From: Nannobrachium achirus
Taxonomy: Eukaryota; Chordata; Actinopteri; Myctophiformes; Myctophidae
Reading direction: 5' to 3'
Assembly: GCA_963921795.1 (NCBI GenBank)
Contig: OY997642.1
Location: 1,128,926-1,192,925 of the forward strand
DNA: 64,000 nucleotides
Below, piece by piece: positions 2,268 through 62,593 of this stretch (its first letter is position 1; every line of letters starts with the position of its first letter). Below the pieces are notes generated by a model, which was not told the origin of the DNA, made no database searches, and saw only the letters and a list, made by a program, of their open reading frames with translations. Made by a program: the position numbers and the translations under genes.

Positions 2268-5200
2268 GGTGAAGAGCAGGGTTCTATCTCATAGAGGAGG
2301 TGTTCAGTCTAACATGATGTTCTGTTCTCAGGTGAAGAGCAGAGTTCTATCTCATAGAGGAGGTTCAGTCTAACATGGTGTTCTGTTCTCATAGAGGAGG
2401 TTCAGTCTAACATGGTGTTCTGTTCTCATAGAGGAGGTTCAGTCTAACATGATGTTCTGTTCTCATAGAGGAGGTTCAGTCTAACATGATGTTCTGTTCT
2501 CATAGAGGAGGTTCAGTCTAACATGGTGTTCTGTTCTCATAGAGGAGGTTCAGTCTAACATGATGTTCTGTTCTCATAGAGGAGGTTCAGTCTAACATGG
2601 TGTTCTGTTCTCATAGAGGAGGTTCAGTCTAACATGATGTTCTGTTCTCATAGAGGAGGTTCAGTCTAACATGGTGTTCTGTTCTCATAGAGGAGGTTCA
2701 GTCTAACATGATGTTCTGTTCTCATAGAGGAGGTTCAGTCTAACATGGTGTTCTGTTCTCATAGAGGAGGTTCAGTCTAACATGGTGTTCTGTTCTCATA
2801 GAAGAGGTTCAGTCTAACATGATGTTCTGTTCTCATAGAGGAGGTTCAGTCTAACATGGTGTTCTGTTCTCATAGAGGAGGTTCAGTCTAACATGATGTT
2901 CTGTTCTCATAGAGGAGGTTCAGTCTAACATGGTGTTCTGTTCTCATAGAGGAGGTTCAGTCTAACATGGTGTTCTGTTCTCATAGAGGAGGTTCAGTCT
3001 AACATGATGTTCTGTTCTCATAGAGGAGGTTCAGTCTAACATGGTGTTCTGTTCTCATAGAGGAGGTTCAGTCTAACATGATGTTCTGTTCTCATAGAGG
3101 AGGTTCAGTCTAACATGATGTTCTGTTCTCATAAAGGAGGTTCAGTCTAACATGATGTTCTGTTCTCATAGAGGAGGTTCAGTCTAACATGATGTTCTGT
3201 TCTCATAGAGGAGGTTCAGTCTAACATGATGTTCTGTTCTCATAGAGGAGGTTCAGTCTAACATGGTGTTCTGTTCTCATAGAGGAGGTTCAGTCTAACA
3301 TGATGTTCTGTTCTCATAGAGGAGGTTCAGTCTAACATGATGTTCTGTTCTCATAGAGGAGGTTCAGTCTAACATGGTGTTCTGTTCTCATAGAGGAGGT
3401 TCAGTCTAACATGATGTTCTGTTCTCATAGAGGAGGTTCAGTCTAACATGGTGTTCTGTTCTCATAGAAGAGGTTCAGTCTAACATGGTGTTCTGTTCTC
3501 ATAGAGGAGGTTCAGTCTAACATGGTGTTCTGTTCTCATAGAGGAGGTTCAGTCTAACATGATGTTCTGTTCTCATAGAGGAGGTTCAGTCTAACATGGT
3601 GTTCTGTTCTCATAGAGGAGGTTCAGTCTAACATGGTGTTCTGTTCTCATAGAGGAGGTTCAGTCTAACATGGTGTTCTGTTCTCATAGAGGAGGTTCAG
3701 TCTAACATGGTGTTCTGTTCTCATAGAGGAGGTTCAGTCTAACATGGTGTTCTGTTCTCATAGAGGAGGTTCAGTCTAACATGGTGTTCTGTTCTCATAG
3801 AGGAGGTTCAGTCTAACATGGTGTTCTGTTCTCATAGAGGAGGTTCAGTCTAACATGATGTTCTGTTCTCATAGAGGAGGTTCAGTCTAACATGGTGTTC
3901 TGTTCTCATAGAGGAGGTTCAGTCTAACATGATGTTCTGTTCTCATAGAGGAGGTTCAGTCTAACATGGTGTTCTGTTCTCATAGAGGAGGTTCAGTCTA
4001 ACATGGTGTTCTGTTCTCATAGAGGAGGTTCAGTCTAACATGGTGTTCTGTTCTCATAGAGGAGGTTCAGTCTAACATGGTGTTCTGTTCTCATAGAGGA
4101 GGTTCAGTCTAACATGATGTTCTGTTCTCATAGAGGAGGTTCAGTCTAACATGATGTTCTGTTCTCATAGAGGAGGTTCAGTCTAACATGGTGTTCTGTT
4201 CTCATAGAGGAGGTTCAGTCTAACATGATGTTCTGTTCTCATAGAGGAGGTTCAGTCTAACATGATGTTCTGTTCTCATAAAGGAGGTTCAGTCTAACAT
4301 GGTGTTCTGTTCTCATAGAAGAGGTTCAGTCTAACATGATGTTCTGTTCTCATAGAGGAGGTTCAGTCTAACATGGTGTTCTGTTCTCATAGAGGAGGTT
4401 CAGTCTAACATGATGTTCTGTTCTCATAGAGGAGGTTCAGTCTAACATGGTGTTCTGTTCTCATAGAGGAGGTTCAGTCTAACATGATGTTCTGTTCTCA
4501 TAGAGGAGGTTCAGTCTAACATGGTGTTCTGTTCTCATAGAGGAGGTTCAGTCTAACATGATGTTCTGTTCTCATAGAGGAGGTTCAGTCTAACATGATG
4601 TTCTGTTCTCATAGAGGAGGTTCAGTCTAACATGATGTTCTGTTCTCATAAAGGAGGTTCAGTCTAACATGGTGTTCTGTTCTCATAGAGGAGGTTCAGT
4701 CTAACATGATGTTCTGTTCTCATAGAGGAGGTTCAGTCTAACATGGTGTTCTGTTCTCATAGAGGAGGTTCAGTCCTAACATGATGTTCTGTTCTCATAG
4801 AGGAGGTTCAGTCTAACATGATGTTCTGTTCTCATAAAGGAGGTTCAGTCTAACATGATGTTCTGTTCTCATAGAGGAGGTTCAGTCTAACATGGTGTTC
4901 TGTTCTCATAGAGGAGGTTCAGTCTAACATGGTGTTCTGTTCTCATAGAGGAGGTTCAGTCTAACATGGTGTTCTGTTCTCATAGAGGAGGTTCAGTCTA
5001 ACATGATGTTCTGTTCTCATAGAGGAGGTTCAGTCTAACATGATGTTCTGTTCTCATAGAGGAGGTTCAGTCTAACATGATGTTCTGTTCTCATAGAGGA
5101 GGTTCAGTCTAACATGGTGTTCTGTTCTCATAGAGGAGGTTCAGTCTAACATGATGTTCTGTTCTCATAAAGGAGGTTCAGTCTAACATGATGTTCTGTT

Positions 5201-8200
5201 CTCATAGAGGAGGTTCAGTCTAACATGGTGTTCTGTTCTCATAGAGGAGGTTCAGTCTAACATGGTGTTCTGTTCTCATAGAGGAGGTTCAGTCTAACAT
5301 GGTGTTCTGTTCTCATAGAGGAGGTTCAGTCTAACATGATGTTCTGTTCTCATAAAGGAGGTTCAGTCTAACATGATGTTCTGTTCTCATAGAGGAGGTT
5401 CAGTCTAACATGATGTTCTGTTCTCATAGAGGAGGTTCAGTCTAACATGGTGTTCTGTTCTCATAGAGGAGGTTCAGTCTAACATGGTGTTCTGTTCTCA
5501 TAGAGGAGGTTCAGTCTAACATGATGTTCTGTTCTCATAAAGGAGGTTCAGTCTAACATGATGTTCTGTTCTCATAAAGGAGGTTCAGTCTAACATGGTG
5601 TTCTGTTCTCATAGAGGAGGTTCAGTCTAACATGATGTTCTGTTCTCATAGAGGAGGTTCAGTCTAACATGGTGTTCTGTTCTCATAGAGGAGGTTCAGT
5701 CTAACATGGTGTTCTGTTCTCATAGAGGAGGTTCAGTCTAACATGATGTTCTGTTCTCATAGAGGAGGTTCAGTCTAACATGGTGTTCTGTTCTCATAGA
5801 GGAGGTTCAGTCTAACATGATGTTCTGTTCTCATAGAGGAGGTTCAGTCTAACATGGTGTTCTGTTCTCATAGAGGAGGTTCAGTCTAACATGATGTTCT
5901 GTTCTCATAGAGGAGGTTCAGTCTAACATGGTGTTCTGTTCTCATAGAGGAGGTTCAGTCTAACATGATGTTCTGTTCTCATAGAGGAGGTTCAGTCTAA
6001 CATGATGTTCTGTTCTCATAGAGGAGGTTCAGTCTAACATGGTGTTCTGTTCTCATAGAGGAGGTTCAGTCTAACATGATGTTCTGTTCTCATAGAGGAG
6101 GTTCAGTCTAACATGATGTTCTGTTCTCATAGAGGAGGTTCAGTCTAACATGGTGTTCTGTTCTCATAGAGGAGGTTCAGTCTAACATGATGTTCTGTTC
6201 TCATAGAGGAGGTTCAGTCTAACATGATGTTCTGTTCTCATAGAGGAGGTTCAGTCTAACATGGTGTTCTGTTCTCATAGAGGAGGTTCAGTCTAACATG
6301 GTGTTCTGTTCTCATAGAGGAGGTTCAGTCTAACATGATGTTCTGTTCTCATAGAGGAGGTTCAGTCTAACATGATGTTCTGTTCTCATAGAGGAGGTTC
6401 AGTCTAACATGATGTTCTGTTCTCATAAAGGAGGTTCAGTCTAACATGATGTTCTGTTCTCATAGAGGAGGTTCAGTCTAACATGGTGTTCTGTTCTCAT
6501 AGAGGAGGTTCAGTCTAACATGATGTTCTGTTCTCATAGAGGAGGTTCAGTCTAACATGGTGTTCTGTTCTCATAGAGGAGGTTCAGTCTAACATGATGT
6601 TCTGTTCTCATAGAGGAGGTTCAGTCTAACATGGTGTTCTGTTCTCATAGAGGAGGTTCAGTCTAACATGGTGTTCTGTTCTCATAGAGGAGGTTCAGTC
6701 TAACATGATGTTCTGTTCTCATAGAGGAGGTTCAGTCTAACATGGTGTTCTGTTCTCATAGAGGAGGTTCAGTCTAACATGGTGTTCTGTTCTCATAGAG
6801 GAGGTTCAGTCTAACATGGTGTTCTGTTCTCATAGAGGAGGTTCAGTCTAACATGATGTTCTGTTCTCATAGAGGAGGTTCAGTCTAACATGGTGTTCTG
6901 TTCTCATAAAGGAGGTTCAGTCTAACATGGTGTTCTGTTCTCATAGAGGAGGTTCAGTCTAACATGGTGTTCTGTTCTCATAAAGGAGGTTCAGTCTAAC
7001 ATGATGTTCTGTTCTCATAGAGGAGGTTCAGTCTAACATGGTGTTCTGTTCTCATAGAGGAGGTTCAGTCTAACATGGTGTTCTGTTCTCATAGAGGAGG
7101 TTCAGTCTAACATGGTGTTCTGTTCTCATAGAGGAGGTTCAGTCTAACATGGTGTTCTGTTCTCATAGAGGAGGTTCAGTCTAACATGATGTTCTGTTCT
7201 CATAGAAGAGGTTCAGTCTAACATGGTGTTCTGTTCTCATAGAAGAGGTTCAGTCTAACATGATGTTCTGTTCTCATAGAGGAGGTTCAGTCTAACATGG
7301 TGTTCTGTTCTCATAGAGGAGGTTCAGTCTAACATGATGTTCTGTTCTCATAGAGGAGGTTCAGTCTAACATGGTGTTCTGTTCTCATAGAGGAGGTTCA
7401 GTCTAACATGGTGTTCTGTTCTCATAGAGGAGGTTCAGTCTAACATGATGTTCTGTTCTCATAGAGGAGGTTCAGTCTAACATGATGTTCTGTTCTCATA
7501 GAGGAGGTTCAGTCTAACATGGTGTTCTGTTCTCATAGAGGAGGTTCAGTCTAACATGATGTTCTGTTCTCATAGAGGAGGTTCAGTCTAACATGATGTT
7601 CTGTTCTCATAGAGGAGGTTCAGTCTAACATGGTGTTCTGTTCTCATAGAGGAGGTTCAGTCTAACATGATGTTCTGTTCTCATAGAGGAGGTTCAGTCT
7701 AACATGATGTTCTGTTCTCATAGAGGAGGTTCAGTCTAACATGGTGTTCTGTTCTCATAGAGGAGGTTCAGTCTAACATGGTGTTCTGTTCTCATAGAGG
7801 AGGTTCAGTCTAACATGGTGTTCTGTTCTCATAGAGGAGGTTCAGTCTAACATGGTGTTCTGTTCTCATAGAGGAGGTTCAGTCTAACATGATGTTCTGT
7901 TCTCATAGAGGAGGTTCAGTCTAACATGGTGTTCTGTTCTCATAGAGGAGGTTCAGTCTAACATGGTGTTCTGTTCTCATAGAGGAGGTTCAGTCTAACA
8001 TGGTGTTCTGTTCTCATAGAGGAGGTTCAGTCTAACATGATGTTCTGTTCTCATAGAGGTGTTCAGTCTAACATGGTGTTCTGTTCTCATAGAGGAGGTT
8101 CAGTCTAACATGGTGTTCTGTTCTCATAAAGGAGGTTCAGTCTAACATGGTGTTCTGTTCTCATAGAGGAGGTTCAGTCTAACATGATGTTCTGTTCTCA

Positions 8201-11200
8201 TAGAGGAGGTTCAGTCTAACATGGTGTTCTGTTCTCATAGAGGAGGTTCAGTCTAACATGGTGTTCTGTTCTCATAGAGGAGGTTCAGTCTAACATGATG
8301 TTCTGTTCTCATAGAGGTGTTCAGTCTAACATGGTGTTCTGTTCTCATAGAGGAGGTTCAGTCTAACATGGTGTTCTGTTCTCATAGAGGAGGTTCAGTC
8401 TAACATGGTGTTCTGTTCTCATATGAGGAGGTTCAGTCTAACATGGTGTTCTGTTCTCATAGAAGAGGTTCAGTCTAACATGGTGTTCTGTTCTCATAGA
8501 GGAGGTTCAGTCTAACATGGTGTTCTGTTCTCATAGAGGAGGTTCAGTCTAACATGGTGTTCTGTTCTCATAGAAGAGGTTCAGTCTAACATGATGTTCT
8601 GTTCTCATAGAGGAGGTTCAGTCTAACATGGTGTTCTGTTCTCATAGAGGAGGTTCAGTCTAACATGGTGTTCTGTTCTCATAGAGGAGGTTCAGTCTAA
8701 CATGATGTTCTGTTCTCATAGAGGAGGTTCAGTCTAACATGGTGTTCTGTTCTCATAGAGGAGGTTCAGTCTAACATGGTGTTCTGTTCTCATAGAGGAG
8801 GTTCAGTCTAACATGGTGTTCTGTTCTCATAGAGGAGGTTCAGTCTAACATGGTGTTCTGTTCTCATAGAAGAGGTTCAGTCTAACATGATGTTCTGTTC
8901 TCATAGAGGAGGTTCAGTCTAACATGATGTTCTGTTCTCATAGAGGAGGTTCAGTCTAACATGGTGTTCTGTTCTCATAGAGGAGGTTCAGTCTAACATG
9001 ATGTTCTGTTCTCATAGAGGAGGTTCAGTCTAACATGGTGTTCTGTTCTCATAGAGGAGGTTCAGTCTAACATGGTGTTCTGTTCTCATAGAGGAGGTTC
9101 AGTCTAACATGGTGTTCTGTTCTCATAGAGGAGGTTCAGTCTAACATGATGTTCTGTTCTCATAGAGGAGGTTCAGTCTAACATGGTGTTCTGTTCTCAT
9201 AGAAGAGGTTCAGTCTAACATGGTGTTCTGTTCTCATAGAGGAGGTTCAGTCTAACATGATGTTCTGTTCTCATAGAAGAGGTTCAGTCTAACATGGTGT
9301 TCTGTTCTCATAGAGGAGGTTCAGTCTAACATGATGTTCTGTTCTCATAGAGGAGGTTCAGTCTAACATGGTGTTCTGTTCTCATAGAGGAGGTTCAGTC
9401 TAACATGGTGTTCTGTTCTCATAGAGGAGGTTCAGTCTAACATGATGTTCTGTTCTCATAGAGGAGGTTCAGTCTAACATGGTGTTCTGTTCTCATAGAG
9501 GAGGTTCAGTCTAACATGATGTTCTGTTCTCATAGAGGAGGTTCAGTCTAACATGGTGTTCTGTTCTCATAGAGGAGGTTCAGTCTAACATGGTGTTCTG
9601 TTCTCATAGAGGAGGTTCAGTCTAACATGATGTTCTGTTCTCATAGAGGAGGTTCAGTCTAACATGGTGTTCTGTTCTCATAGAGGAGGTTCAGTCTAAC
9701 ATGATGTTCTGTTCTCATAGAGGAGGTTCAGTCTAACATGGTGTTCTGTTCTCATAGAGGAGGTTCAGTCTAACATGGTGTTCTGTTCTCATAGAGGAGG
9801 TTCAGTCTAACATGATGTTCTGTTCTCATAGAGGAGGTTCAGTCTAACATGATGTTCTGTTCTCATAGAGGAGGTTCAGTCTAACATGGTGTTCTGTTCT
9901 CATAGAGGAGGTTCAGTCTAACATGATGTTCTGTTCTCATAGAGGAGGTTCAGTCTAACATGGTGTTCTGTTCTCATAGAGGAGGTTCAGTCTAACATGA
10001 TGTTCTGTTCTCATAAAGGAGGTTCAGTCTAACATGATGTTCTGTTCTCATAGAGGAGGTTCAGTCTAACATGGTGTTCTGTTCTCATAAAGGAGGTTCA
10101 GTCTAACATGATGTTCTGTTCTCATAGAGGAGGTTCAGTCTAACATGGTGTTCTGTTCTCATAGAGGAGGTTCAGTCTAACATGATGTTCTGTTCTCATA
10201 GAGGAGGTTCAGTCTAACATGATGTTCTGTTCTCATAGAGGAGGTTCAGTCTAACATGGTGTTCTGTTCTCATAGAGGAGGTTCAGTCTAACATGGTGTT
10301 CTGTTCTCATAGAGGAGGTTCAGTCTAACATGGTGTTCTGTTCTCATAGAGGAGGTTCAGTCTAACATGGTGTTCTGTTCTCATAGAGGAGGTTCAGTCT
10401 AACATGATGTTCTGTTCTCATAGAGGAGGTTCAGTCTAACATGGTGTTCTGTTCTCATAGAGGAGGTTCAGTCTAACATGATGTTCTGTTCTCATAGAGG
10501 AGGTTCAGTCTAACATGGTGTTCTGTTCTCATAGAGGAGGTTCAGTCTAACATGATGTTCTGTTCTCATAGAGGAGGTTCAGTCTAACATGGTGTTCTGT
10601 TCTCATAGAGGAGGTTCAGTCTAACATGATGTTCTGTTCTCATAGAGGAGGTTCAGTCTAACATGGTGTTCTGTTCTCATAGAGGAGGTTCAGTCTAACA
10701 TGGTGTTCTGTTCTCATAGAGGAGGTTCAGTCTAACATGATGTTCTGTTCTCATAGAGGAGGTTCAGTCTAACATGGTGTTCTGTTCTCATAGAGGAGGT
10801 TCAGTCTAACATGGTGTTCTGTTCTCATAGAGGAGGTTCAGTCTAACATGATGTTCTGTTCTCATAGAGGAGGTTCAGTCTAACATGGTGTTCTGTTCTC
10901 ATAAAGGAGGTTCAGTCTAACATGATGTTCTGTTCTCATAGAGGAGGTTCAGTCTAACATGGTGTTCTGTTCTCATAGAGGAGGTTCAGTCTAACATGAT
11001 GTTCTGTTCTCATAGAGGAGGTTCAGTCTAACATGATGTTCTGTTCTCATAGAGGAGGTTCAGTCTAACATGGTGTTCTGTTCTCATAGAGGAGGTTCAG
11101 TCTAACATGGTGTTCTGTTCTCATAGAGGAGGTTCAGTCTAACATGGTGTTCTGTTCTCATAGAGGAGGTTCAGTCTAACATGATGTTCTGTTCTCATAG

Positions 11201-11716
11201 AGGAGGTTCAGTCTAACATGGTGTTCTGTTCTCATAGAGGAGGTTCAGTCTAACATGATGTTCTGTTCTCATAGAGGAGGTTCAGTCTAACATGATGTTC
11301 TGTTCTCATAGAGGAGGTTCAGTCTAACATGATGTTCTGTTCTCATAGAGGAGGTTCAGTCTAACATGATGTTCTGTTCTCATAGAGGAGGTTCAGTCTA
11401 ACATGGTGTTCTGTTCTCATAGAGGAGGTTCAGTCTAACATGGTGTTCTGTTCTCATAGAGGAGGTTCAGTCTAACATGGTGTTCTGTTCTCATAGAGGA
11501 GGTTCAGTCTAACATGATGTTCTGTTCTCATAGAGGAGGTTCAGTCTAACATGATGTTCTGTTCTCATAGAGGAGGTTCAGTCTAACATGGTGTTCTGTT
11601 CTCATAGAGGAGGTTCAGTCTAACATGGTGTTCTGTTCTCATAGAGGAGGTTCAGTCTAACATGGTGTTCTGTTCTCATAGAGGAGGTTCAGTCTAACAT
11701 GGTGTTCTGTTCTCAG
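2268..11716 (+). repeat. 37-bp minisatellite, ~255 copies, ending in a real splice acceptor
   Basis: About 9.4 kb of a 37-bp unit containing TTCAGTCTAACATGGTGTTC followed by TGTTCTCATAG. Variants are ATGATG versus ATGGTG, CATAAAGG versus CATAGAGG, and occasional CATAGAAG. Each unit carries a branch-point-like TCTAAC, a pyrimidine-rich stretch and a TAG, i.e. a 3' splice-site cassette. The last unit ends TTCTGTTCTCAG, which is the acceptor of the exon starting at 11717. The first units (2268-2345) carry CTCAGGTGAAGAGCAG, which resembles that exon's first bases, so the array is bounded by two copies of the exon boundary. Confidence 0.95.
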
Positions 11717-11817
11717 GTGAAGCAGTGGGAGCAGAGGGAGACATCTTGGATTACCCAGAAGGCTCAGCTGGAGCAGAGAGTGGAGGAAGAGGAGGAGAAA
11801 GCAGAGAAACTAACAAA
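11717..11817 (+). CDS. ppp1r9-like: Neurabin/spinophilin-type coiled-coil exon (partial gene)
   Basis: Reads VKQWEQRETSWITQKAQL and then an acidic run ending EKAEKLT plus two bases of a Lys codon. The acceptor is CTCAG at 11712-11716 and the donor is AAA|GTATGA. The split codon completes with G from the next exon to give K-Y-W-Q-E-A-Q, which matches the coiled-coil C-terminal half of neurabin/spinophilin (scaffolds that tether PP1 to F-actin in dendritic spines and at junctions). Upstream exons are outside the window. The acceptor is the last unit of a ~9.4-kb minisatellite, and a ~50-bp intronic tandem repeat starts 10 bp after the donor. Confidence 0.85.
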
Positions 11818-11826
11818 GTATGAAAT

Positions 11827-11937
11827 ATTTAAACTTTATAATTCTGACTCCTTCATGTTTATATTTAAACTTTATTATTCTGACTCCTTCATATTTATAT
11901 TTAAACATTATTATAATTCTGACTCACCTTCATATTT
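11827..11937. repeat. ~50-bp tandem repeat, 3 copies, just inside intron
   Basis: TATTTAAACTTTAT, ATTCTGACTCCTTCAT and TTTA repeat three times immediately after the donor at 11817. Confidence 0.85.
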
Positions 11938-12348
11938 GAGCTGAACAGATGGATATGATTGAATATAAACAAGGTGTTTGCCATCAGGATGGTTTCCATG
12001 TGAATTATGTGAATACTGACGAACGTTGAAGGGTGCACCCACATATCGGTCGTTAGCGGTCAATATCAGTATCTACCTATACTTATCTGTGATTGATGAT
12101 CATCTTTGATTGATTGATTGGTAGATTGAAGGTTGCATAGGAAAAGGTACAGTTTCATGACGGTACAGTTCTGGTACAAGGTCAACTAAAAGTATACGCT
12201 CAGGAAATATTGCATTGAATGGCAGACAGAGAAAACACAGCTCTATGCAGAGAAAATAAGAAAAACAGTCGATGCAAAAATAAATGGTATTTACAATAGA
12301 AGGATTGGCTAGGTTTGCTGTCAATCATTATTGATGATGGATATGTGT
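11938..12348. other. Intron, low-complexity AT-rich, no gene
   Basis: Contains short GATT and GATGAT repeats. No exon or recognised transposon is seen. Confidence 0.5.
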
Positions 12349-12420
12349 TGATGACATCATCAGGGTGGTGAATATTGATGATGAATATTAATGAGATGAA
12401 TGTTGATGACATCATCAGGT
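12349..12420 (+). repeat. Duplicated splice acceptor (~52-bp tandem, 2 copies)
   Basis: TGTTGATGACATCATCAG occurs at about 12349-12366 and again at 12401-12418. The second copy is the acceptor of the exon at 12419, and the first is followed by GGTGGTG rather than coding sequence. Confidence 0.8.
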
Positions 12421-12547
12421 ACTGGCAGGAAGCTCAGACCCTCTGCAGGGTGGTGAGTCAGCGATTGGCTGACGCTCAGAGCCAATCAGAGAGCCTGGAG
12501 GTGAAATACAACAAGGCCAAGAGACTGGTGAGAGAATACCAGAGCAG
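12419..12547 (+). CDS. ppp1r9-like: Neurabin-type coiled-coil exon (YWQEAQTLC...)
   Basis: 129 nt: G completing Lys, then 42 codons, then AG of a split Arg/Ser codon. The peptide begins YWQEAQTLCRVVSQRLADAQ and ends KYNKAKRLVREYQS. The pattern YWxEAQxLC...YNKAKxLxxxYQ is the conserved coiled-coil block of neurabin and spinophilin. Acceptor ATCATCAG, donor AG|GTAATTATT. A ~640-bp transposon begins 40 bp downstream. Confidence 0.92.
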
Positions 12548-12587
12548 GTAATTATTTTTATTATTATTATTATTATGCATTTGTTGC

Positions 12588-52026: not shown

Positions 52027-52027
<1 letters not shown>

Positions 52028-52189
52028 GCACACACAGAGTAAATACATTGCTGCTATTCTCTTATCTCAGGCACTATGTGTGTAAATACCGTATGATGCG
52101 TATTTTAGCAAACAGCTGACAGGAGCGGTTTTGCGGTCGCTAAATTACACTGTGGTAAAGAAAAAAAGAGTTGAGTTGTAAGGCAAATC

Positions 52190-52690
52190 TCTCTGTCAAT
52201 CTTCGTTCCTACTCTCACCTATGGTCATGAAGTGTGGGTCATGACGCAAAGTATAAGGTCGCGGGTGTAAGCGGACGAAATGGGTTTCCTCAGACGGGTG
52301 GCTGGTATCTCCCTTAGAGATAGGGTGAGAAGTTCAGTCACCCGAGAGAGACTTGGAGTAGAACCGCTGCTCCTTCACTTGGAAAGGAGTCAGCTTAGGT
52401 GGTTGGGGCATCTAGTACGGATGCCTCCCGAGCGCCTTCCTAGGAAGGTCCTCGATGCGCGTCCCACTGGGAGGAGACCCTGTGGCAGACCAAAGACCAG
52501 ATGGAAGGATTATATCTCCAAACTGGCCTGGGAACGCCTCGGTATACTCCCTGAGGGAGTGGAGGAAGTTGCTCAGGATAAGGAAATCTGGAGGTCTCAG
52601 TTGGAACTGTTACCCCCGCGACCCGATTCCGGATAAGCGGTTGAAATGGATGGATGGATGGATGGATGGATGGATGGATGGATGGATGAC
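52190..52690 (+). mobile_element. 5'-truncated LINE (RTE/Rex-like) with (GGAT)n tail
   Basis: LTYGHEVWVMT, a frame break (TAA near 52269), then MGFLRRVAGISLRDRVRSSV ... [20 protein letters not shown] ... to a stop at 52634-52636. These are the C-terminal words of a very common fish LINE. Ends in GGATGGATGGATGGATGG. Dead copy. Confidence 0.9.
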
Positions 52691-53410
52691 ACCATTTTGC
52701 ATACTGGCTCAAATAAACAAGGTTTGTTTAAATGCCTGGATCATTATTTTGCAATGCATTTTGTTTATGATGTTTTGTGTTTGTGAGGATGATGGTGAGT
52801 GGCATTGAGAGTGCTACAGTAGGCCTACAAATAATGGTTGCTCAGACTAATGAGCAGTATGTGTATGACATACTGTCTCATACTAATTCCTCACTGCGTG
52901 TCGGATTTTAGTCTGGAATTTTCAATTCCAAGGGGTGGTTTAAAAAAAAAATGTCAAGGTGACATGCTCTTAATTGCTCCCTTTGAACTTCAAAGGGGTT
53001 GTGAACTGCGGTAATTGATTGAGCCATACAAGTGTAATCATCAAAGACTACGACCTGTTTGATGTATGTAATTAGAGTGGAGGGGGGAATGTGTTTATAT
53101 ACACACAGACACGCCTGATCGGCTGAATTGGTTCTGAACCAGGCCACCACCCACCACGTGCCCCAAGCCTTCAGCCCTGATTGGCTAACCCTTTCTCGTG
53201 GCTGGTCGAAATGGATTCTCAATTGTGAGGGGCCAGACTTCACTACACCACCACTACCGCCAGGGGGTGGTGTTGTGCGGTCTGGTTTATTAACCAGGCT
53301 AGTGCTGGCCAGTGCCAAAATAATCAAAAGCCTGTTACCAACGGCCGCCTGGTCTCTTTTAAGCGCCCGGGGTGCACACCCATTTTGCATGATAAACACC
53401 CGGGCTGCTA
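52691..53410. other. Integrin intron, no gene
   Basis: A 241-codon frame starting at 53633 on the - strand runs from the exon through the intron to 52908. Only its first 36 codons are exonic. Nothing else recognised. Confidence 0.5.
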
Positions 53411-53502
53411 ATTCATAATATACGGTAATATACGGTAATATACGGTAATGTAGGGTAAAATACGGTAATATACGGTAATGTAGGGTAAAATACGGTATGT
53501 AA
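53411..53502. repeat. 12-14-bp tandem repeat (AATATACGGT)
   Basis: TAATATACGGTAATATACGG and GTAGGGTAAAATACGG. Confidence 0.9.
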
Positions 53503-53525
53503 TCTGTAATGTTTTTGTTTCTCAC

Positions 53526-53627
53526 CAGAGTCTGGTTCTTCCTCTTGTCAGAGAGCAGAGAGTAGGATGGCTCCCTCTGGGTCCTAGAGTCCTCCAGAGC
53601 CCGACGTCTCCTGTTGCTGTCTGCCTC
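53526..53627 (-). CDS. itga6-like: Integrin alpha exon with furin cleavage site
   Basis: 34 codons, phase 0: EADSNRRRRALEDSRTQREP, SYSLLSDKRKNQTL. RRRR|A fits the furin R-X-X-R site that cleaves alpha-3/6/7 subunits into heavy and light chains; alpha-6 has RKKR at this place. N-glycosylation sequon NQT. Acceptor GATGTGTGCAG, donor CTG|GTGAGA. Confidence 0.95.
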
Positions 53628-53716
53628 CTGCACACATCAACACAACACTGGGTCTGTAGATCTGTGATTCTATAGATATAGAGACCACCTGTCCTAGAAT
53701 CAAGAAGATCCTCGGT

Positions 53717-54030
53717 GGTCTACCAGATCTATAGATCTAGTGGTCTACCAGATCTATAGATCTAGTGGTCTACCAGATCTATAGATCTGGTAGACCACTA
53801 GATCTATAGATCTATAGATCTGGTAGACCACTAGATCTATAGATCTGGTAGACCACTAGATCTATAGATCTAGTGGTCTACCAGATCTATAGATCTGGTA
53901 GACCACTAGATCTATAGATCTAGTGGTCTACCAGATCTATAGATCTAGTGGTCTACCAGATCTATAGATCTGGTAGACCACCAGATCTATAGATCTGGTA
54001 GACCACTAGATCTATAGATCTGGTAGACCC
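53717..54030. repeat. Palindromic repeat of AGATCTATAGATCT / GTGGTCTACC
   Basis: Alternating blocks TCTAGTGGTCTACCAGATC and its inverse GATCTGGTAGACCACTAGA joined by AGATCTATAGATCT. About 12-13 blocks, many consecutive ones head-to-head. Confidence 0.93.
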
Positions 54031-54640
54031 AAACCTTTCAGCTCCAACCCAACAGAGAGACGTTTTGCACGGGACCCAAACTAGTGAAAATAGCAGATCT
54101 ACAAGCTCACAACGCAATTTTCACTACTTCATTGTGGGCTCGCCTGAAAGGCGAGAACACTATGTTATCCTCATTATTTATAGTGAGTTCCGTCACAGAC
54201 AGTACAAAGGCAGGGCCCTTAGCCAATGAGGTGCAATTGGTTCAAATCTGGGAGTGGTGTTAGCTGGAGTATTGGTTGAGCTTCACATGACAGTTAGCAC
54301 GCTGCAGAATATAGTCATGAGCGAGCCCACACTGTTTCATAGGAACAGTATTTCTAGGTTGAGTACCCTATAGTTTAATGTTAGAAATGTTGAGTATGGG
54401 TCCCCAGCATGTTTCTTGTTTTATTTTATTATTTTTGAGCGGTGCAAACCGCTCCTATATTTCACTTTCGGTTTATCTAGTTAAAACATATTAGCACGGG
54501 ACGATTCTTTCATTCTTCATCGATTGGCTAGTTGAGTAATTAAACATTAGAATCGACCAATCAGAAACCGTTCTACTCATGACGACATGTGTTAGCCAAA
54601 CAGAACAGACCAATCAAATGCTGTGTTGTTCATGTTAATT
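54031..54640. repeat. Integrin intron with dispersed repeat fragments
   Basis: 54073-54115 carries the AGCAGATCTACAAGCTCACA motif; 54195-54355 matches 17690-17790 (GAGCCCACACTGTTTCATAG). No exon. Confidence 0.6.
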
Positions 54641-55440
54641 TAGGTCTGTCTTGGCCATTACACTTGCACTTGAGACCGGTTTAAAGTTCATGAAAGGTCC
54701 AGGCGTAATGGCCAGGTTGTTTCATATGCTGGACCTCTCCTAAACCTTAAACTAACAGATTGAACACCACACAGGATTCGAAACAGCAACCACGCTACAT
54801 TACCCTTGCAGGCTATGATTACTGTTTCGAATCCTGTGTGTTGTTCAATCTGCCAGTTTAAAGTTTAGGAAAGATTTGTGCCGGTTTAAAGTTCAGGAAA
54901 GGTCCTTCCATCTTTCTGTCTGTCTGATCCCCTCTCCGTTCTGCCCTCTGTCTGTTTTATTTGAGCTCCTGGTCTGGACTGCATATTATTTTTCTCTTCT
55001 ATTCACTCTTTGACTGCCACCAAGCTGGTAATGGCCAGGCTGTTTGTCTGACCTCCTGTCTGTTCTCCCTCTGTCTCCCTCTTGCTTTATAACCCACAAG
55101 AAGCTCTATTTGTCTCTATCTGTTTTCAGACAGCAACATTTAAGAGTTTCTCCTGCATCTCGGCTACTCCAAATGGAGTTTCTGGTGACACATAAATGTG
55201 CACATTACATTGTTATTTGGTCTGGTCAAGGATACTAACAAAACTGGCTGGTATGTTGCGCATAATATACTCCTGATGGTGTAACCGACATAAAAAGTCT
55301 GACCAACCGCATATCCTGGAACTTTCTGGCGCAAATCTACGACCACCCAAGATTCAAGACAGCGACCACGCTACATTAAACCCTGTAGTCTATGATTGCT
55401 GTTTCGAATCCTGGTTGGTGTTCGTTTTGAGCCGGTGTAA
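54641..55440. mobile_element. Foldback-type repeat region (GATTCGAAACAGCAACC)
   Basis: CACAGGATTCGAAACAG pairs with CTGTTTCGAATCCTGTG around 54771-54838; a second diverged copy at 55350-55420. GGTTTAAAGTTCATGAAAGG and GGTTTAAAGTTCAGGAAAGG occur as direct repeats. No coding. Confidence 0.6.
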
Positions 55441-55865
55441 AGGTCAGGACACACGAAAACCTTATATAGTCTGAGCAGACCTCTAGACTGACATCATACA
55501 CAACACAAAGAATATTGCCATGCATGCCTATCAACACTGATTCGCGCAGGTGCCCTTGCAGGAATTAGTTTGCACCGCTCACTTCGCACGGGTGCGATTT
55601 TTATCCCATGATTTTGTAACTCATTATTTCCACCCAGTGCCAACTGCCTAAGCTGTAATCCTGGGCTCAATCCCCCTGAACTGCATGAGGATTGAGCAGG
55701 ACGCTTCTTATCACCTGACAGGGGGAGTTTCCTCGTTTGGACAGCGCGTGGAAGGAACACGTTATTAGTTATTAGATAAGCTTTTAGCCAATCAGGAAGC
55801 AGCATTCTCGGTGACGTCATCCAATGGGGAAACCCTTGAAAGACACAGAGTGACCTCATCAGCGG
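55441..55865. other. Integrin intron, no gene
   Basis: CCGCTCACTTCGCACGGGTG near 55577 resembles 574-595; otherwise unrecognised. Confidence 0.4.
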
Positions 55866-56076
55866 GTTGACCTCTGACCTCTCCAGGGTGGTACTGACCT
55901 GTGTGACCCCCAGGGGGTTGACCTCTGACCTCTCCAGGGTGGTACTGACCTGTGTGACCCCCAGGGGGTTGACCTCTGACCTCTCCAGGGTGGTACTGAC
56001 CTGTGTGACCCCCAGGGGGTTGACCTCTGACCTCTCCAGGGTGGTACTGACCTGTGTGACCCCCAGGGGGTTGACC
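55866..56076 (-). repeat. 51-bp in-frame repeat of exon end plus donor, 4 copies
   Basis: In integrin sense each unit is GTCAGTACCACCCTGGAGAG, GTCAGAGGTCAACCCCCTGG, GGGTCACACAG. CAG|GTCAGT donors follow 56052, 56001, 55950 and 55899. Each further donor would add 17 residues (VSTTLERSEVNPLGVTQ) without a stop. Confidence 0.95.
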
Positions 56077-56228
56077 TCGGCCTGGGGGGAGCAGGTCACA
56101 GAGCTCAGGTCTCCGCTGGCTGTGATCTTCATCAGGTAGAGGAGCCACTTCTCCTCCTGGGTCTCCTTGGGCCACTGGACCACCAGGGAGGCTGTTCCGT
56201 AGTTCTTGGTGGTCCCCAAGTTAATGAT
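56052..56228 (-). CDS. itga6-like: Integrin alpha calf exon (IINLGTTKNYGTASL...)
   Basis: 59 codons, phase 0: IINLGTTKNYGTASLVVQWP, KETQEEKWLLYLMKITASGD, LSSVTCSPQAEVNPLGVTQ. Matches alpha-6 (VINLG...LGTATLNIQWPKE..GKWLLYL.KVES ... CEPQKEINSLN). Acceptor GGGGGTACAG. The donor is given as the first of four identical CAG|GTCAGT sites; using a later one would lengthen the exon by 51, 102 or 153 nt in frame. Confidence 0.92.
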
Positions 56229-56313
56229 CTGTACCCCCAGAAATACACTTTTAACTGTTATTATTTAAAACATATTCTACTGGTCCCCAGCTTGATGATC
56301 CGCGTGCGTAAAT

Positions 56314-58079
56314 TAGAGTTCTCAACGGGCCTGAAAATTAGGGCCCGGCCCTAACTGGGCCCTAACCGGGCCCTAACTGGGCAGGCCCAAGGCCCTACCC
56401 GGCCCTAATAGTTAACATACATTTTAGGCCCTACCCGGCCCGAAAACGTCGGGTCGGGTCGGGTATGGTCGGGTCTATCATATAGTAATAGTAATAAAAT
56501 AATAAAAACAAATATTTTATTTTTCTCATTGAGCCCGAGGCCCTACCCGGCCTGACTAATTAGCTTACATTTTAGGCCCTCCTACCCTACCCTAAATGTC
56601 GGTCAGGTTCGGGCAGAATTTGAGAACTAGGCCTGTCCTCTAAAAATCGACGAATCAACGCGTCGTTTTAAGCCCCGGGAATCGACGCCAATTGTTTGAG
56701 TCGAGGCGAAAATATATATATTTCTTATATCATCAGTTAGCCTACTACTGCGGTGCGGTGCACCGCTGGACTGGTGTCATGTACTTCCAATTGAGAGAAG
56801 TAGCATTTGGCGAACAGTTATTTATTGTCTCGCACCAGCGTAGGGGTGAAAGTGAGACGGAACGGCCAGAACGGTTCAGAACCGCCGCTTCGTTAAAACA
56901 TTCGGAGCCGGGACGGTGTTCCGTTAAGAGGAGGAAGCACGCTGTCAAAATCCCATATACTCATTTACTGCCTATGACTAGTTTGACGAGTTATATAAGT
57001 GTGTCCACTCTGCCTATGACTAGTATGACGAGTTTGTAAAAAAAAAAAAAAAAATGTTTTTTTTTTTTTTTTTGAAAAATTATTTTTGGACCCCATCAAA
57101 TCTAGTAAGCATGATTTCAATCGCGATTTTGCATGTTCAACCCCCATACAACCCCATCTTTCAAAGAGGGCGGCCATTTTTGATTACATAACATGTAAAA
57201 CATAATGGCTATTATCTCAAGAATGCCTGAACGGATTTCCAATCGGATTTTTTTGTTTGAAAGCTGTGAACAAACTGCACAAACATGGTGCATCATCTGT
57301 GCATGGGCGTGCATGATCCGTGCACTATAAATTACATTGAAGTCTATGGAGGCTTCTGGCGGGGAGCCCTGATGGGAGCTGTTTCAAAATGGCAGTAAAT
57401 GAGTTAAATAACCTGCCACAGCACAAACGCACGTCCACAAAGTAATTAAACAATCTTCTAAAGTCAAATTAACATACACAAGTGTAGGCTACAAGTTACA
57501 TGTTCTAATTAAAGTGCTTCTGAATTGTTCCAGTGTTGTAATCCATGATGAATGATTGTGTTTCGCTGTGTTTGCGTCCATGACATGTCCACACTGCTGG
57601 CTCTAGCGGGAGCTGTGCCTCCGCCTGTTTATGATCCGTTTCTGAAATGAATCCGTTCTCGACACTGACTCATTACTCTGTCAGTGCTCTGTGTCCCGCG
57701 ACTGCGGACTGGATCCCATCGTTCATTTAAAAGAGCCGTTCAAGAGAGCGGAATCGTTCGCGAATGTCTCATCTATACTGCACGCTGCCGAGAGACGGGT
57801 CAGAGTTGAAACAGCGGAGATGTTTTATTTGTTTTAACGGTGTGTTATAACTCTATGGTTGTGCTCGCGCACAGATATCACCGAAAACACCGTGTATTCA
57901 ATTCATCTTAATATATTATTGTATTATGTTGACGTGGTTTAAAGCAACACTTTTTTTTTTCTTTTTTTTTTACACACAAAGTAGACTATAAAACGATTCG
58001 TCGACGCGTCGGAATGAACCCCTCGAGTCGAGTCGACTTCAAAAATCCTGAGTCGAGGACAGGCCTATTGAGAACTCTA
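56314..58079. mobile_element. Outer hAT-like element with perfect 8-bp target duplication
   Basis: TAGAGTTCTCAA at 56314-56325 and TTGAGAACTCTA at 58068-58079; GCGTAAAT on both sides (56306-56313 and 58080-58087). Interior of GGGCCCTAAC / CGGCCCGA words, ~320 bp before it was interrupted by the inner element. Confidence 0.88.
56628..58067. mobile_element. Inner hAT-like element, 1.44 kb, nested, with 8-bp duplication
   Basis: TAGGCCTGTCCTC at 56628 and GAGGACAGGCCTA ending 58067, flanked by TTGAGAAC (56620-56627 and 58068-58075). Subterminal ATCGACGAATCAACGCGTCG / ACGATTCGTCGACGCGTCG. Contains an inverted TTAA-MITE relative at about 57040-57350. No transposase frame. Confidence 0.9.
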
Positions 58080-58174
58080 GCGTAAATGCGCGTGCATAAA
58101 CACATAACAGTGCAGTGCCACAGATCAAATATCATTCAAACATTTAAAAGCAATGAACCGTTAACTACATTACG

Positions 58175-58306
<132 letters not shown>

Positions 58307-58354
58307 ACTCAGATTGTGGTGTGGTGTAGGGTTAGGGTTAAGGGTTAGGGGTGA

Positions 58355-58480
58355 AAGGTGAAAGGTCACTCACTCTGAACTGGTATCTGATCAAACTGTG
58401 GTGTAGTGTTAGGGTTAGGGGTGAAAGGGGTAGGGGTGAAAGGTGAAAGGTCACTCACTCTGAACTGGTATCGTATCAAA
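58355..58480 (-). repeat. Duplicated splice donor with telomere-like spacer (2 copies)
   Basis: GTCACTCACTCTGAACTGGT, ATC and ATCAAACTG occur at 58366-58398 and 58450-58482, with GTTAGGGTTAGGGGTGAAAG between. Both carry AGA|GTGAGTGA on the - strand. Confidence 0.92.
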
Positions 58481-58561
58481 CTGCCGATGTCACTCTCTGT
58501 CTTCATGGCACTCTGACCTTTGACCTTTCCTGCAAAGTACACCTGGGGGGGATGGGCGTGT
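58459..58561 (-). CDS. itga6-like: Integrin alpha exon (HAHPPQVYFAGKVKGQ...)
   Basis: One base completing Gly, then 34 codons: HAHPPQVYFAGKVKGQSAMK, TESDIGSLIRYQFR. Matches alpha-6 (VAKPSQVYFGGTVVGEQAMKSEDEVGSLIEYEFR). The acceptor at CTCTCTCTCCAG (58562+) is chosen over a CCCCCAG 18 nt inside because it restores HAHPPQ and the phase of the previous exon. Donor AGA|GTGAGT. Confidence 0.93.
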
Positions 58562-58728
58562 CTGGAGAGAGAGGACGAGAGAGAGACTATAGATAACACT
58601 ATAGATAGGACACAGTGAATGTGTGTGTGTGTGTGTGTTGCCACCCATCCCATATCAGCCGGGGCGGGGCCTGTATTCTGACCAAAAGAGGCGCGTCCCG
58701 TACGGGACGTCAATTGGTAAAGGAAAGG

Positions 58729-59026
58729 GCCCTCCACACACGGCGCGGTCACCGTCGGGGCTGCCGCTAGGATCAGCGGTGGCCGCACCGCGGTGAGACA
58801 CAAACACACTCGCTCAGTGAGTAAACGCTGCGCGGTATTTCACAAAGATGAACACAATCCATCTCTCACCGCCCGTGTACGCATGCACAAACGAGCAGGG
58901 AGATTTCACGGGACCGCGCCCGCTCTCCTCGCCGCCCCAAAACTTCGCTGCGCGGCTGAAAAAGCCGCCCGCCTCTCATTGAAAATGAATTGCTAGGAGG
59001 CGGTGACCGCGCCTCGTGTGGAGGGC
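58729..59026. mobile_element. MITE with 25-bp inverted ends (GCCCTCCACAC...)
   Basis: GCCCTCCACACACGGCGCGG and inverse CCGCGCCTCGTGTGGAGGGC. GC-rich interior, no clear target duplication. Confidence 0.85.
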
Positions 59027-59120
59027 ACCGAACGATGCACGTAAAATATATATTTTAATGTTTGTGCACCAGGCAGTGCATCCTACCTGTGTGTTTGTGT
59101 GCTGTAAACGCTCGTGTGGC

Positions 59121-59311
<191 letters not shown>

Positions 59312-59319
59312 AGTCCTAC

Positions 59320-59397
59320 CCAGTCACAGACAGCTGCAGTTCTATCAGAACTTTGGCTCTGGCTTTGATCACTGCCAGGTCCTTCTGCTCACTGGTC
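59320..59397 (-). CDS. itga6-like: Integrin alpha exon (TSEQKDLAVIKARAKVLIEL...)
   Basis: One base completing Thr, 25 codons, GG: TSEQKDLAVIKARAKVLIEL, QLSVT. Matches alpha-6 (TSNQDNLAPITAKAKVVIELLLSVSG). Acceptor CATCATAG, donor GG|GTAGGA. A second copy of the acceptor and exon start lies at about 60413-60430. Confidence 0.94.
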
Positions 59398-60465
59398 CTA
59401 TGATGAGAATAACAATAACAATGATATTCAGTAAGTATTGGGGCATTCACCAATAGTGATTTTTAGTATTCTAATTATTCGACCTCAAAGTATTCGTATA
59501 GTGGAATATAGGACTGTCCAAACTGTCAAATATTAAGTAAGCAAGAGGAGAACATTGTGAAAATAGCAGATCTACATGCTCACAACGCCTCGCGTTGCGA
59601 GGCGTTGTGAGCATGTAGATCTGCTATTTTCACAATATTCATCTGTGGAACCGAGTCACATTAAATGCAATACCTACAATTCCAAGTGCTTGTCAGGGTG
59701 GGGGTCCCCAGTTCAAATATGTTTATTTTGGGGGTCACGGCCTAAAAAGGTTTGAGAAGCCCTGGTATAGAGCATTAACAAATTCATCCACCAGGGGCAT
59801 TGACAACTCATTCTTATGACTTCCTATCTAGCCAAGCTTCATAAACTATATATTTTTTAAAGAGAAAACAATAAAGAAAATTAAATAAGTGAATATTCGA
59901 CTTTGGTGAACAACATCGAATAGTGACTTTGATATTGGAATATTCTAATATGTGTGACTGAGTGTGACACTGGGGCAGTCATTTCGGAAGCCACTACTTT
60001 AGACCACAGCTGAAATAACTTTTTTCTTTCTTCTTTTTTTTCTAAAATGTGATAAAGCCACAAAAGCATGTCATAAATATCAGGCTACATTTCACTTAAA
60101 CGCCAGAGCTTAACTCTACATGTAAATAAGACTTTTTTTAATTAATGTGAGAGATCGGGACATAATTCTGTTGGTCCTCCCAAATTTAGAACTTGAATAT
60201 CTCAAAAGTAGAATTTCAGCATGGCATCATTCTATAAGCCATATCTTCAAAATTGTTGGGTCAATCTCCACAACCAATATATCATTTTGTAGCTATGATT
60301 CCCAGCTTTCAAATGAAATGAAACAATGAAAATGAAAAAGAAATCAATGACTAGCCGTCAGCCGCGCTGGGACACATTTGGTGAATGCCCCAGTAAGTAC
60401 ATTAACTCTGTTCACTGGTCCTACAAGCATCATAATAATAACAATGATATTCAGTAAGTACATAA
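59391..60465 (-). repeat. Duplicated splice acceptor region, copies now ~1 kb apart
   Basis: CACTGGTCCTATGATGAGAA ... AACAATGATATTCAGTAAGT at 59391-59441 and CACTGGTCCTACAAGCATCA ... AACAATGATATTCAGTAAGT at 60413-60459. The second also reads TTGTAG|GACCAGTGA on the - strand. The hAT element between them separates an original ~70-bp tandem duplication. Confidence 0.85.
59443..60391. mobile_element. hAT-like element (GGGGCATTCACC ends), long copy
   Basis: GGGGCATTCACCAATAGTGA at the left, GGTGAATGCCCC at the right, AGTAAGTA on both sides (a candidate 8-bp duplication). Contains the ~42-bp-arm hairpin at 59545-59637. Confidence 0.85.
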
Positions 60466-61108
60466 ACTCCAGTACAGTATTTACACATTTACTGCCACGA
60501 CCAACATGCCACTGTGTCTCTCTGCCAGGCCCGAGGAACCCGGAGATTTAATATCGTCGTTGTCAGGTGGAAACCTCGTATCTCCAAGTTTCAAATTTGT
60601 ACGTTCTGTCGCGAAGCAAAGCCCTGCTTCATCATCATACAAGGCTGTCACACAAAAGTAGTGAAAACAGCAGATCTACAAGCAGTAGATCTGCTGTTTT
60701 CACTAGTTTTACTAGAATGCAAAACAAACGGTTTTGGACATACAAGGTTTTCATCGGACAACAACGATATGCTTTAATCGCTATGAAACAATTAAAAGTA
60801 TGATCGCCGATCCAACTTTTTTTTGTACCCGACTATCCGTTGGAACCGGATACGGATGTTCCGGGACTGGAAACAGGGCACGGGACAACCGGTCCATGTT
60901 TCTGATCCCCGAACACATTGCTTCCATGATCACCCTGGCTGATTGCTCAGTGCTGACACGTTCGTAATGGAATATGGAGGACTGTTGTTTTAGAAAGGTT
61001 TACCACCTCATGCTCGCAGAGCGTGCGCGATCCGTAGAACCGTCATGCACAATAGACACGCACGCGCCCACGTTAAAAGGTAAGGACATTCTGGCAGAAA
61101 ACGACATA
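60466..61108. other. Integrin intron, hairpin motif, no gene
   Basis: GTGAAAACAGCAGATCTACA and inverse at 60660-60707. GGAACCGGATACGG words unrecognised. Confidence 0.45.
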
Positions 61109-61116
61109 GCCTATAG

Positions 61117-61501
61117 CAGGGATACTCAAACTTCTGAACCAGTGGGCCACATTACAAAAATGTCAAGGGCCAGTTGATAAAATAACATTACTTGATAACT
61201 TCTATCTTTTATTTGCTTTATTTCCACATGACTTAAGACAAGTGCAATGTGCATTATTTCATGGCTTGGAATTCCATTTATATTCTATCAATGACACAAT
61301 TTGTAATCAAAGTAATTTGCTAACTTCGAATCTTCGATTTCAATGTCCGCTTTCAAGATGTTTTGGCCATTATCTCTGGAACGCAAGGTCCAATCCGCTC
61401 AGTTTAAATCTTGTTGGATGCGTGACTTCGAGGACATTAAGCTGGTCAAAATTGCGCCGCGGGCCGGAAGTGCCCAGCGGGCCGGAGTTTGAGTATCACT
61501 G
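61117..61501. mobile_element. hAT-like MITE with perfect 8-bp duplication
   Basis: CAGGGATACTCAAACT ... AGTTTGAGTATCACTG, flanked by GCCTATAG (61109-61116 and 61502-61509). Interior GTGGGCCACATTACAAAAAT and GCGGGCCGGA are typical of this fish hAT MITE type. Confidence 0.92.
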
Positions 61502-61562
61502 GCCTATAGGACGACTTTTTAATGGCAGTTAAAATGCTGACAGAATCAACAGTTTTCCTCAC

Positions 61563-61642
61563 GTCTGTCTCTGCAGGCTGATCTCCAGCTCAGTGGTGTT
61601 GGGGTTGATTTTGGTGGTCCCCAGGATGAGATAGAAGGTAGT
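61563..61642 (-). CDS. itga6-like: Integrin alpha exon ([20 protein letters not shown]...)
   Basis: 26 codons plus [28 protein letters not shown]. Matches alpha-6 (VTFYLVLSTTEVTFDTPDLDINLKLETT). N-glycosylation sequon NTT. Acceptor TATGTAG directly after a (TG)n run in RNA sense; donor AC|GTGAGG. Confidence 0.93.
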
Positions 61643-61648
61643 CTACAT

Positions 61649-61775
61649 ACACACACACACACACACATACACACACGCACGCACGCACGCACACACACAT
61701 GCATGCACACACACACACGCACACACATGCCCACATGCAGACACACACACGGGCACGCACGCACACACACACAAC
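61649..61775. repeat. (CA)n/(CG) microsatellite, (UG)n in integrin RNA, at an acceptor
   Basis: ACACAC runs with GCACGC and CATGCA interruptions. Confidence 0.95.
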
Positions 61776-62344
61776 CGCCAAGGTGGTTTATTTATTTTTG
61801 GAACACAGTTCTGCTAACGTTTCACTCTGGTATTGTCAGTAGAAAAAATCTTAGACATTAATTCTGACATATTAACTCTTTTACTGCTTCGGACGTTCCC
61901 GCTTGCCCCAATATTGACCCTAGCTCGTTGCCAATACGAACGCTCCTTCATTTACTTACTTTTGATGACTGTAAGCTGATGAGGGGTCGCGCCGCCGCGT
62001 ACAGTAAAAAAATCTCCCGTAACGCTGCTCTAAAATTTCCACTGCACGTAAACAATAATGGAGTCCCAAATCACTTCCTGGCTGTTTTCTGTGGATCTGA
62101 TCTAGAAAATGCATTTCTATGCTCTGAATGGACGGCAAGCCGAGCGGCCCAATTCACATTAATCTTTGCATAAGGCTGCCCTCTGCCGCCAGCTTGGCTA
62201 AAGTACACATATAATAGATCCAATGAAAAAACAATCGTTTGGAAATAATCAATAGATCTTTTTCTATAACATCGCAAAGGTAAGCTGCTTTTTGCTGGCA
62301 CCAGACACAATAAATACATAATACATCTGGTAGTAGAACTGTTA
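61776..62344. other. Integrin intron, no recognised feature
   Basis: No exon or paired repeat seen. Confidence 0.4.
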
Positions 62345-62593
62345 ACAGAGACATCATATTAACAGACACCTCATATTAACAGAGACATCATATTAACAGA
62401 CACATCATATTAAATATTAACAGACACATCATATTAACAGACACCTCATATTAACAGACACATCATATTAAATATTAACAGAGACATCATATTAACAGAC
62501 ACCTCATATTAACAGAGACATCATATTAACAGACACATCATATTAACAGACACCTCATATTAACAGAGACATCATATTAAATATTAACAGACC
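62345..62593 (-). repeat. 17-19-bp minisatellite starting at a splice donor, ~13 copies
   Basis: ACATCATATTAACAGACACC-type units. In gene sense the array begins GTCTGTTAATAT, which is the donor itself (AAG|GTCTGTTAATA), so the donor's intronic bases are part of the unit. Confidence 0.92.

Follow-up and report, generated by a model that had tools for sequence, protein, structure and literature searches.

The human gene IFI6 (6-16, G1P3) reportedly contains a minisatellite with multiple splice donor sites, a single-gene case said to have appeared in Nucleic Acids Res in 1995. In human segmental duplications, the accessible part of De Grassi and Ciccarelli 2009 (PMC2812944) describes minisatellite expansion (~30-bp units, ~4 copies), some of it at exon–intron boundaries and with effects on splicing. 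Intron gain by tandem duplication is treated in the accessible text of PMC4974935 under the AGGT model, with ATP2A1 and the potato RdRp. The present study concerns a window of 64,000 nucleotides from the myctophid fish Nannobrachium achirus (contig OY997642.1, positions 1,128,926 to 1,192,925; all coordinates below are positions in this window). The window holds the 3′ parts of two neighbouring genes, one neurabin-1-like and the other integrin alpha-6-like, and tandem repeats are found at more than a third of the splice junctions in them.

The locus resembles IFI6 in that the functional splice site lies within the tandem unit, here at 10 of the 15 junctions that carry repeats, with three of these ten being two-copy duplications and not minisatellites. 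With AGGT intron gain, as given in the accessible portion of PMC4974935, it shares a local tandem duplication with splice signals.

Tandem repeats at the splice junctions

Junctions were taken from two gene models, which were assembled from open frames and splice signals and checked by script; the support for the junctions comes from frame, splice signals and homology. The models give 40 splice junctions in the window, 21 from 11 exons on the + strand (neurabin-1-like) and 19 from 10 exons on the − strand (integrin alpha-6-like), where an earlier prediction, made from the sequence by eye, had counted 41. Repeats were detected with Tandem Repeats Finder (TRF) and, independently, by a search for direct repeats of local extent with lags from 10 to 300 bp, referred to below as the lag scan. 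The latter was added because TRF alone overlooks the two-copy duplications at donors 14824 and 50959. It yielded 45 clusters, with 674 of 1113 segments retained after a low-complexity filter.

By TRF or the lag scan, a tandem repeat was found on or right beside 15 of the 40 junctions. These comprise the acceptors 11717, 12419 (weak), 26380, 36686 and 49301, and the donors 11817 (weak), 13875, 14824, 16470, 26448, 29041, 62593, 58459, 56052 and 50959. In the gene-model check TRF flagged 14 junctions with the score set at 50 and 15 with it at 30, donor 36829 included. At 36829 the flagged sequence is a coil repeat within the exon, so this donor was left out of the 15, as was donor 18464, which was flagged at score 30 only. 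Neither the bias towards donors (10/19 donors vs 5/21 acceptors, P 0.10) nor the larger size of arrays at acceptors than at donors (P 0.17) was significant.

Of the 16 junctions that the original prediction listed, 14 do touch a local tandem duplication by one method or the other. The remaining two, 59397 and 49176, were rejected: TRF placed no array at <190 bp, the lag scan detected none, and the exon copy did not rise above shuffles. The ranges given for copy number and unit length agree with those measured here (2 to ~253 copies, ~17 to ~139 bp). The accompanying statement that the repeats are unrelated is untrue of the array set of the whole window, in which a tandem unit of ~61 bp is common to arrays at 27977–28766 and 42932–43478, in introns of both genes.

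Comparison with chance expectation

The positions of the arrays were compared with 20,000 shuffles in which arrays were moved inside their own introns with lengths kept, and array ends ≤10 bp from a junction were counted. Such ends were found at 15 of the 40 junctions against a shuffle mean of 0.69, and none of the 20,000 shuffles reached 15, in agreement with the claim that repeats sit on junctions more often than chance allows. With TRF arrays only, the corresponding figures were 13 junctions and 0.66. Random intron points lay ≤10 bp from a cluster end in 2.3% of cases, equivalent to 0.9 of 40 junctions.

Of the 37 intron clusters given by the lag scan, 15 are at a junction and 22 are not. 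A model based on cluster density, in which founding units are free to straddle junctions, was applied to these figures. Based on the 22 non-junction clusters, 1.3 junctions would be expected vs the 15 seen (binomial 1e-12), and both the neurabin gene (10/21, P 4e-10) and the integrin gene (5/19, P 3e-4) showed the excess; based on all 37 clusters, 2.1 would be expected (7e-10; neurabin gene 3e-8, integrin gene 2e-3). The excess of junctions over intron interiors is about 7 to 11 times by density and about 20 times by shuffles. It is apparent that array ends are far in excess at junctions, with both genes contributing. The window was chosen as striking from an unstated number of windows; the whole-set P values leave room for this, and those for the integrin gene by itself leave less.

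Plain coverage gave a different result. TRF arrays make up 47% of the intron bases in the window, and a random intron point lies in or ≤10 bp from an array with p=0.485, so that 19.4 of the 40 junctions would be expected there and 13 were seen. The lag scan gave 20.0 expected and 15 seen. There is thus no junction excess of arrays in the window by coverage with either method, and on this comparison, which the original prediction had named as the one that could overturn it, the claim would be rejected. The coverage test misleads, however, because it is dominated by four giant arrays, which occupy 35% of the intron bases and three of which themselves end at a junction.

Exon sequence copied into introns

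A search for copies of exon sequence was made at 17 junctions (the 15 plus the rejected 59397 and 49176), each compared with 50 single-base shuffles. An exon copy at or ≤5 nt from the junction beat all 50 shuffles at 10 of the 17, namely donors 13875, 14824, 16470, 26448, 29041, 50959, 56052 and 58459 and acceptors 36686 and 49301. At these same ten, out of the 15, the lag scan showed a repeat arm spanning the junction by 3 bp or more in both directions. The founding duplications therefore straddled the junction at 10 of the 15, since copies of the exon end sit in the adjoining intron there. The earlier statement that the repeated unit contains the splice site stands for these ten and is too strong for the whole set.

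The spare copies of exon ends are 25–47 nt long at 8 of the 10 junctions. Margins over the shuffles were narrow at 26448 (23 vs 19 for the best shuffle) and 36686 (26 vs 22). The arrays at 26380, 62593 and 11817 contained no exon sequence detectable by this search against shuffles. Acceptor 12419 beat its shuffles (22 vs 20) through an 11-nt match lying 27 nt inside the exon, and was excluded from the count. That copying ran from exon to intron at 8 of the 10 junctions, the exons not having grown from the repeats, is well supported, because the exon ends at these 8 are recognisably conserved in homologues (judged by eye, with 8 neurabin and 7 integrin homologues aligned).

Among the donors of the neurabin-1-like gene (+ strand), exon end 13875 is followed by an array of ~67 bp × 4.3 (13840..14135), whose copies include 31 nt of the exon end. 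The two-copy duplication over donor 14824 (14799..14892), found by the lag scan and missed by TRF, copies 26 nt of the exon end, and in the array at 16470 (16424..17139) 47 nt of the exon end are copied several times amid telomere-like CCCTAA repeats. At 26448 the unit of 27 bp is present in ~31 copies (26438..27280), with the exon end matched at 13/14 nt. The array at 29041 (29009..29166; ~43 bp × 3.6) copies 33 nt of the exon end, 32 of them matched; two more copies of its unit are found at 29533–29605, ~370 bp past the end of the array, with a dispersed repeat between. The weak case at donor 11817 consists of three copies of 36 bp (11825..11937) that begin 7 bp into the intron.

The largest array of this gene lies before the acceptor of exon 11717 (2262..11715, by TRF and lag scan) and has ~253 copies of 37 bp. 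Its 5′ end, ~9.4 kb off the exon, has longer units that extend over the acceptor into the first 6 nt of the exon; compared with the junction itself, 31/32 nt are identical across the acceptor, 6 nt of them exonic. This 5′ end is probably a leftover of the founding duplication. The acceptor array of exon 26380 (19701..26379) has ~238 copies of 28 bp, with TTTCAG in the consensus unit, and that of exon 36686 (34798..36698) has ~53 copies of ~36 bp, with 13 nt of the exon start copied. At the acceptor of exon 12419 (12346..12419), the second weak case, the lag scan detected a 19-bp second copy of the acceptor at lag 55.

In the integrin alpha-6-like gene (− strand), the acceptor array of exon 49301 (49255..49605) has 45/74 bp units and copies 47 nt of the exon start (46 matched). 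The donor array at 56052 (55864..56078; 51 bp × 4.3) includes 27 nt of the exon end, 99% alike. A two-copy duplication of 85 bp lies over donor 58459 (58320..58483) and copies 25 nt of the exon end (23 matched), and another, missed by TRF, lies over donor 50959 (50859..50995) and copies 37 nt (35/38 columns matched). Donor 50959 is a GC donor, CAG/GCATGT, and its intronic duplicate is also GC. The array after donor 62593 (62342..62592) begins at the first intron base, in 17/58 bp units that contain the intron half of the donor.

Splice-site columns within the arrays

Variation was measured column by column in five large arrays, of which four adjoin junctions. In the array at 36686 the G of the AG is the most variable column and is absent in 12/53 copies, so that the copies there are not maintained as splice sites. 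The AG is retained in the array at 26380, as are most other columns. Across the five large arrays there was no special protection of splice-site columns, and the arrays look like neutral minisatellites. Donors with arrays were not significantly weaker than the rest (9 vs 10 donors; P 0.77 for the donor score and 0.20 for its intron half).

The two genes

The 3′ part of the neurabin-1-like gene (11717..37316, + strand) comprises 11 exons, at 11717–11817, 12419–12547, 13779–13875, 14749–14824, 16334–16470, 18178–18464, 26380–26448, 28795–29041, 32704–32892, 36686–36829 and 37143–37316, the final one with the stop codon. The exons join into one open frame of 549 codons plus stop. A SAM domain was found in the product and matches the PDB structure of the neurabin-1 SAM domain, 2gle. 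The nearest full-length relatives are fish neurabin-1 proteins (P0001, 100% of the query covered), the best match being that of Centroberyx affinis, 57% across the whole query.

Coding exon 18178–18464 contains an in-frame 33-bp tandem repeat at 18184–18252, the second copy of which is without counterpart in the 8 aligned homologues. Nearly all of intron 36830–37142 (313 bp) is taken up by a single element bounded by perfect terminal inverted repeats of 24 bp (36853 to 37125). The remaining 40 bp fall short of a minimal intron, and for this reason the intron may have arrived together with the element.

The 3′ part of the integrin alpha-6-like gene (42022..62679, − strand) comprises 10 exons, at 62679–62593, 61642–61563, 59397–59320, 58561–58459, 56228–56052, 53627–53526, 51969–51859, 51057–50959, 49301–49176 and 42168–42022, again ending with a stop codon, and these join into one open frame of 369 codons plus stop. 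Integrin_A_Ig_3 and Ig_2 domains were found in the product, and its nearest full-length relatives are fish integrin alpha-6 proteins (P0042, 99% of the query covered). In Merluccius polli a neurabin-1 (P0005) and an integrin alpha-6 (P0042) are each recorded from a contig 119,614 bases long, an indication that the genes are adjacent in that species too. The 5′ parts of the two genes were not recognised within the window, and an Rfam scan of it gave no matches at gathering scores.

Possible origins of the junction repeats

Our tentative preference is for a reading in which the repeats began as ordinary tandem duplications hidden by splicing, some of them since grown into minisatellites, and are concentrated at junctions because the introns formerly stood close to the smallest size found in teleosts. 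A local tandem duplication with breakpoints on either side of an exon edge would copy the exon end into the intron and leave the exon intact. Some duplications would then have expanded into minisatellites of up to ~253 copies, and later intron growth would have carried the far side of the intron away from the array. Splice sites are paired across the exon (exon definition), and the spliceosome would pair the authentic acceptor and donor across a short exon and mostly ignore surplus acceptors upstream and donors downstream. The arrays themselves would be without function, as scars of intron lengthening. According to the accessible text of PMC9438311, short introns of teleosts peak near 76 bp and shift rapidly between minimal and larger states. 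If the introns were near this minimum (~76 bp) when the duplications arose, almost any duplication would have touched an exon edge, which would account for the junction excess.

Concealment by splicing had been offered from the start as a possible reason. It agrees with the finding that introns hold extra copies of exon ends while the neighbouring exons are intact, and straddling duplications would survive because splicing masks them, but this explains tolerance and not the excess over intron interiors. Two observations favour introns that were formerly short. Of 11 dinucleotide microsatellites, those at 16079–16321, 51980–52036, 59123–59306 and 61645–61773 end ≤15 bp from an exon edge, so that 4 of 40 edges have one (null 0.21, 3/20,000 shuffles), with a threshold that was seen after the data; at ≤10 bp there are 2 vs 0.14 (162/20,000). 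Intron 13876–14748 has 85 bp remaining outside repeats, which fits a short-intron history.

Several observations weigh against this reading. Formerly tiny introns should crowd dispersed repeats at their edges too, and no such excess was found among families recurring in this window, the ends of which are imprecise: 2 of 40 edges had one at ≤20 bp vs 1.17 expected (P 0.32), and 4 vs 3.3 at ≤60 bp (P 0.42). Of 21 intron or flank stretches, 18 retain >300 bp outside repeats. Conservation of the exon end is poor at 14824 and 26448, which leaves the direction of copying less sure there. A tandem array found by TRF and the lag scan at 37303..37420 (+ strand) lies over the stop codon of the neurabin-1-like gene, which is a coding edge and neither an intron nor a splice site.

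In a second explanation, tandem duplications in this lineage would arise preferentially at splice junctions, which would act as mutational hotspots. The cause might be R-loops or pausing at splice sites, breaks from recombination within transcribed genes, or slippage on a CAGG-like motif that donors and acceptors have in common. A splice-site-directed process fits the contrast between tandem repeats, which show a junction excess, and dispersed repeats, which do not, and it also fits founding units that straddle the junction. CAGG occurs at 11/15 array junctions vs 7/25 others (Fisher P 0.009), a hand-counted, post hoc figure that serves as a lead only. In the accessible portion of PMC11600626, teleosts are proposed to have undergone a shift in hotspots of recombination and structural variance, with an effect on intron size, on losing the aKRAB domain of PRDM9; this would be in line with hotspots at junctions. 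However, array donors score no differently from the rest (P 0.77 and, for the intron half, 0.20), and dinucleotide repeats, which are another kind of repeat, crowd the edges too. We regard this explanation as rather doubtful. Its strongest form, a genome-wide hotspot due to splicing- or transcription-linked mutation, in which arrays built of an exon's own splice site would accompany thousands of exons and splicing would routinely have to find the true site among up to hundreds of near-identical copies, is unlikely. Should the excess instead be local to a striking window with no genome-wide counterpart, as the single window and the extreme repeat load (47% of intron bases) could indicate, the absence of any match in 20,000 shuffles and binomials of 1e-12 to 7e-10 would still leave room for many windows, and each gene shows the excess separately, the integrin gene only at 3e-4 to 2e-3; a purely local excess is accordingly judged quite unlikely.

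Selection could keep the arrays if repeated weak splice sites cooperate in or regulate splicing. A pyrimidine at +3 is present in 4/9 array donors vs 0/10 others, a comparison not set as a test beforehand, and the units at acceptors 11717 and 26380 have an AG and branch-point-like sequences. These points are met by the lack of a significant difference in donor scores and by the 12/53 copies without AG at 36686, and selection for function appears improbable. An assembly artefact, with copies collapsed or invented by the assembler, might be read from the few variant columns in the giant arrays, but many of the cases have only 2–6 copies, several of them diverged, the exon frames are intact, and there is no known reason for assembly errors to land on exon edges. 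This last explanation is very improbable indeed.

Comparison with known systems

The preferred reading, of duplications across once-short introns, draws its short-intron history from work on teleost intron minimisation (PMC9438311 and PMC11600626, accessible text), which is the history that would force duplications onto junctions. Junction tandem repeats are not treated in the accessible text of these two papers, and the main text of PMC9438311 does not contain the word 'tandem' at all. The accessible part of PMC2812944 likewise holds no test of whether repeats are in excess at junctions. In the literature searched, with subscription papers mostly beyond reach, no description of tandem repeats being generally enriched at junctions was found, which does not establish that none exists.

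If the excess proves to be genome-wide, it would provide a direct record of intron growth, in which each straddling duplication leaves an intact exon and an adjacent scar, and it could separate a short-intron history from splice-site-directed breakage at intron edges. The arrays would also serve as natural experiments on how a splice site is chosen, since the genuine acceptor or donor lies beside up to ~250 similar copies.

The expansions in human segmental duplications differ from those described here in that, in the accessible part of PMC2812944, they concern recent paralogues, about half of the repeats lie in coding exons, and novel introns were formed. AGGT intron gain, as set out in the accessible part of PMC4974935, makes a new intron, whereas the copies in this window adjoin existing junctions; the suggested AG/GT proto-splice duplication, if read as a source of new introns, does not appear to match the pattern. 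The IFI6 case involves one gene and donors, and the present one 15 junctions in two genes, with acceptors as well. Single cases were already known; what seems to be new is the density, with 15 of 40 junctions in two genes carrying tandem repeats.

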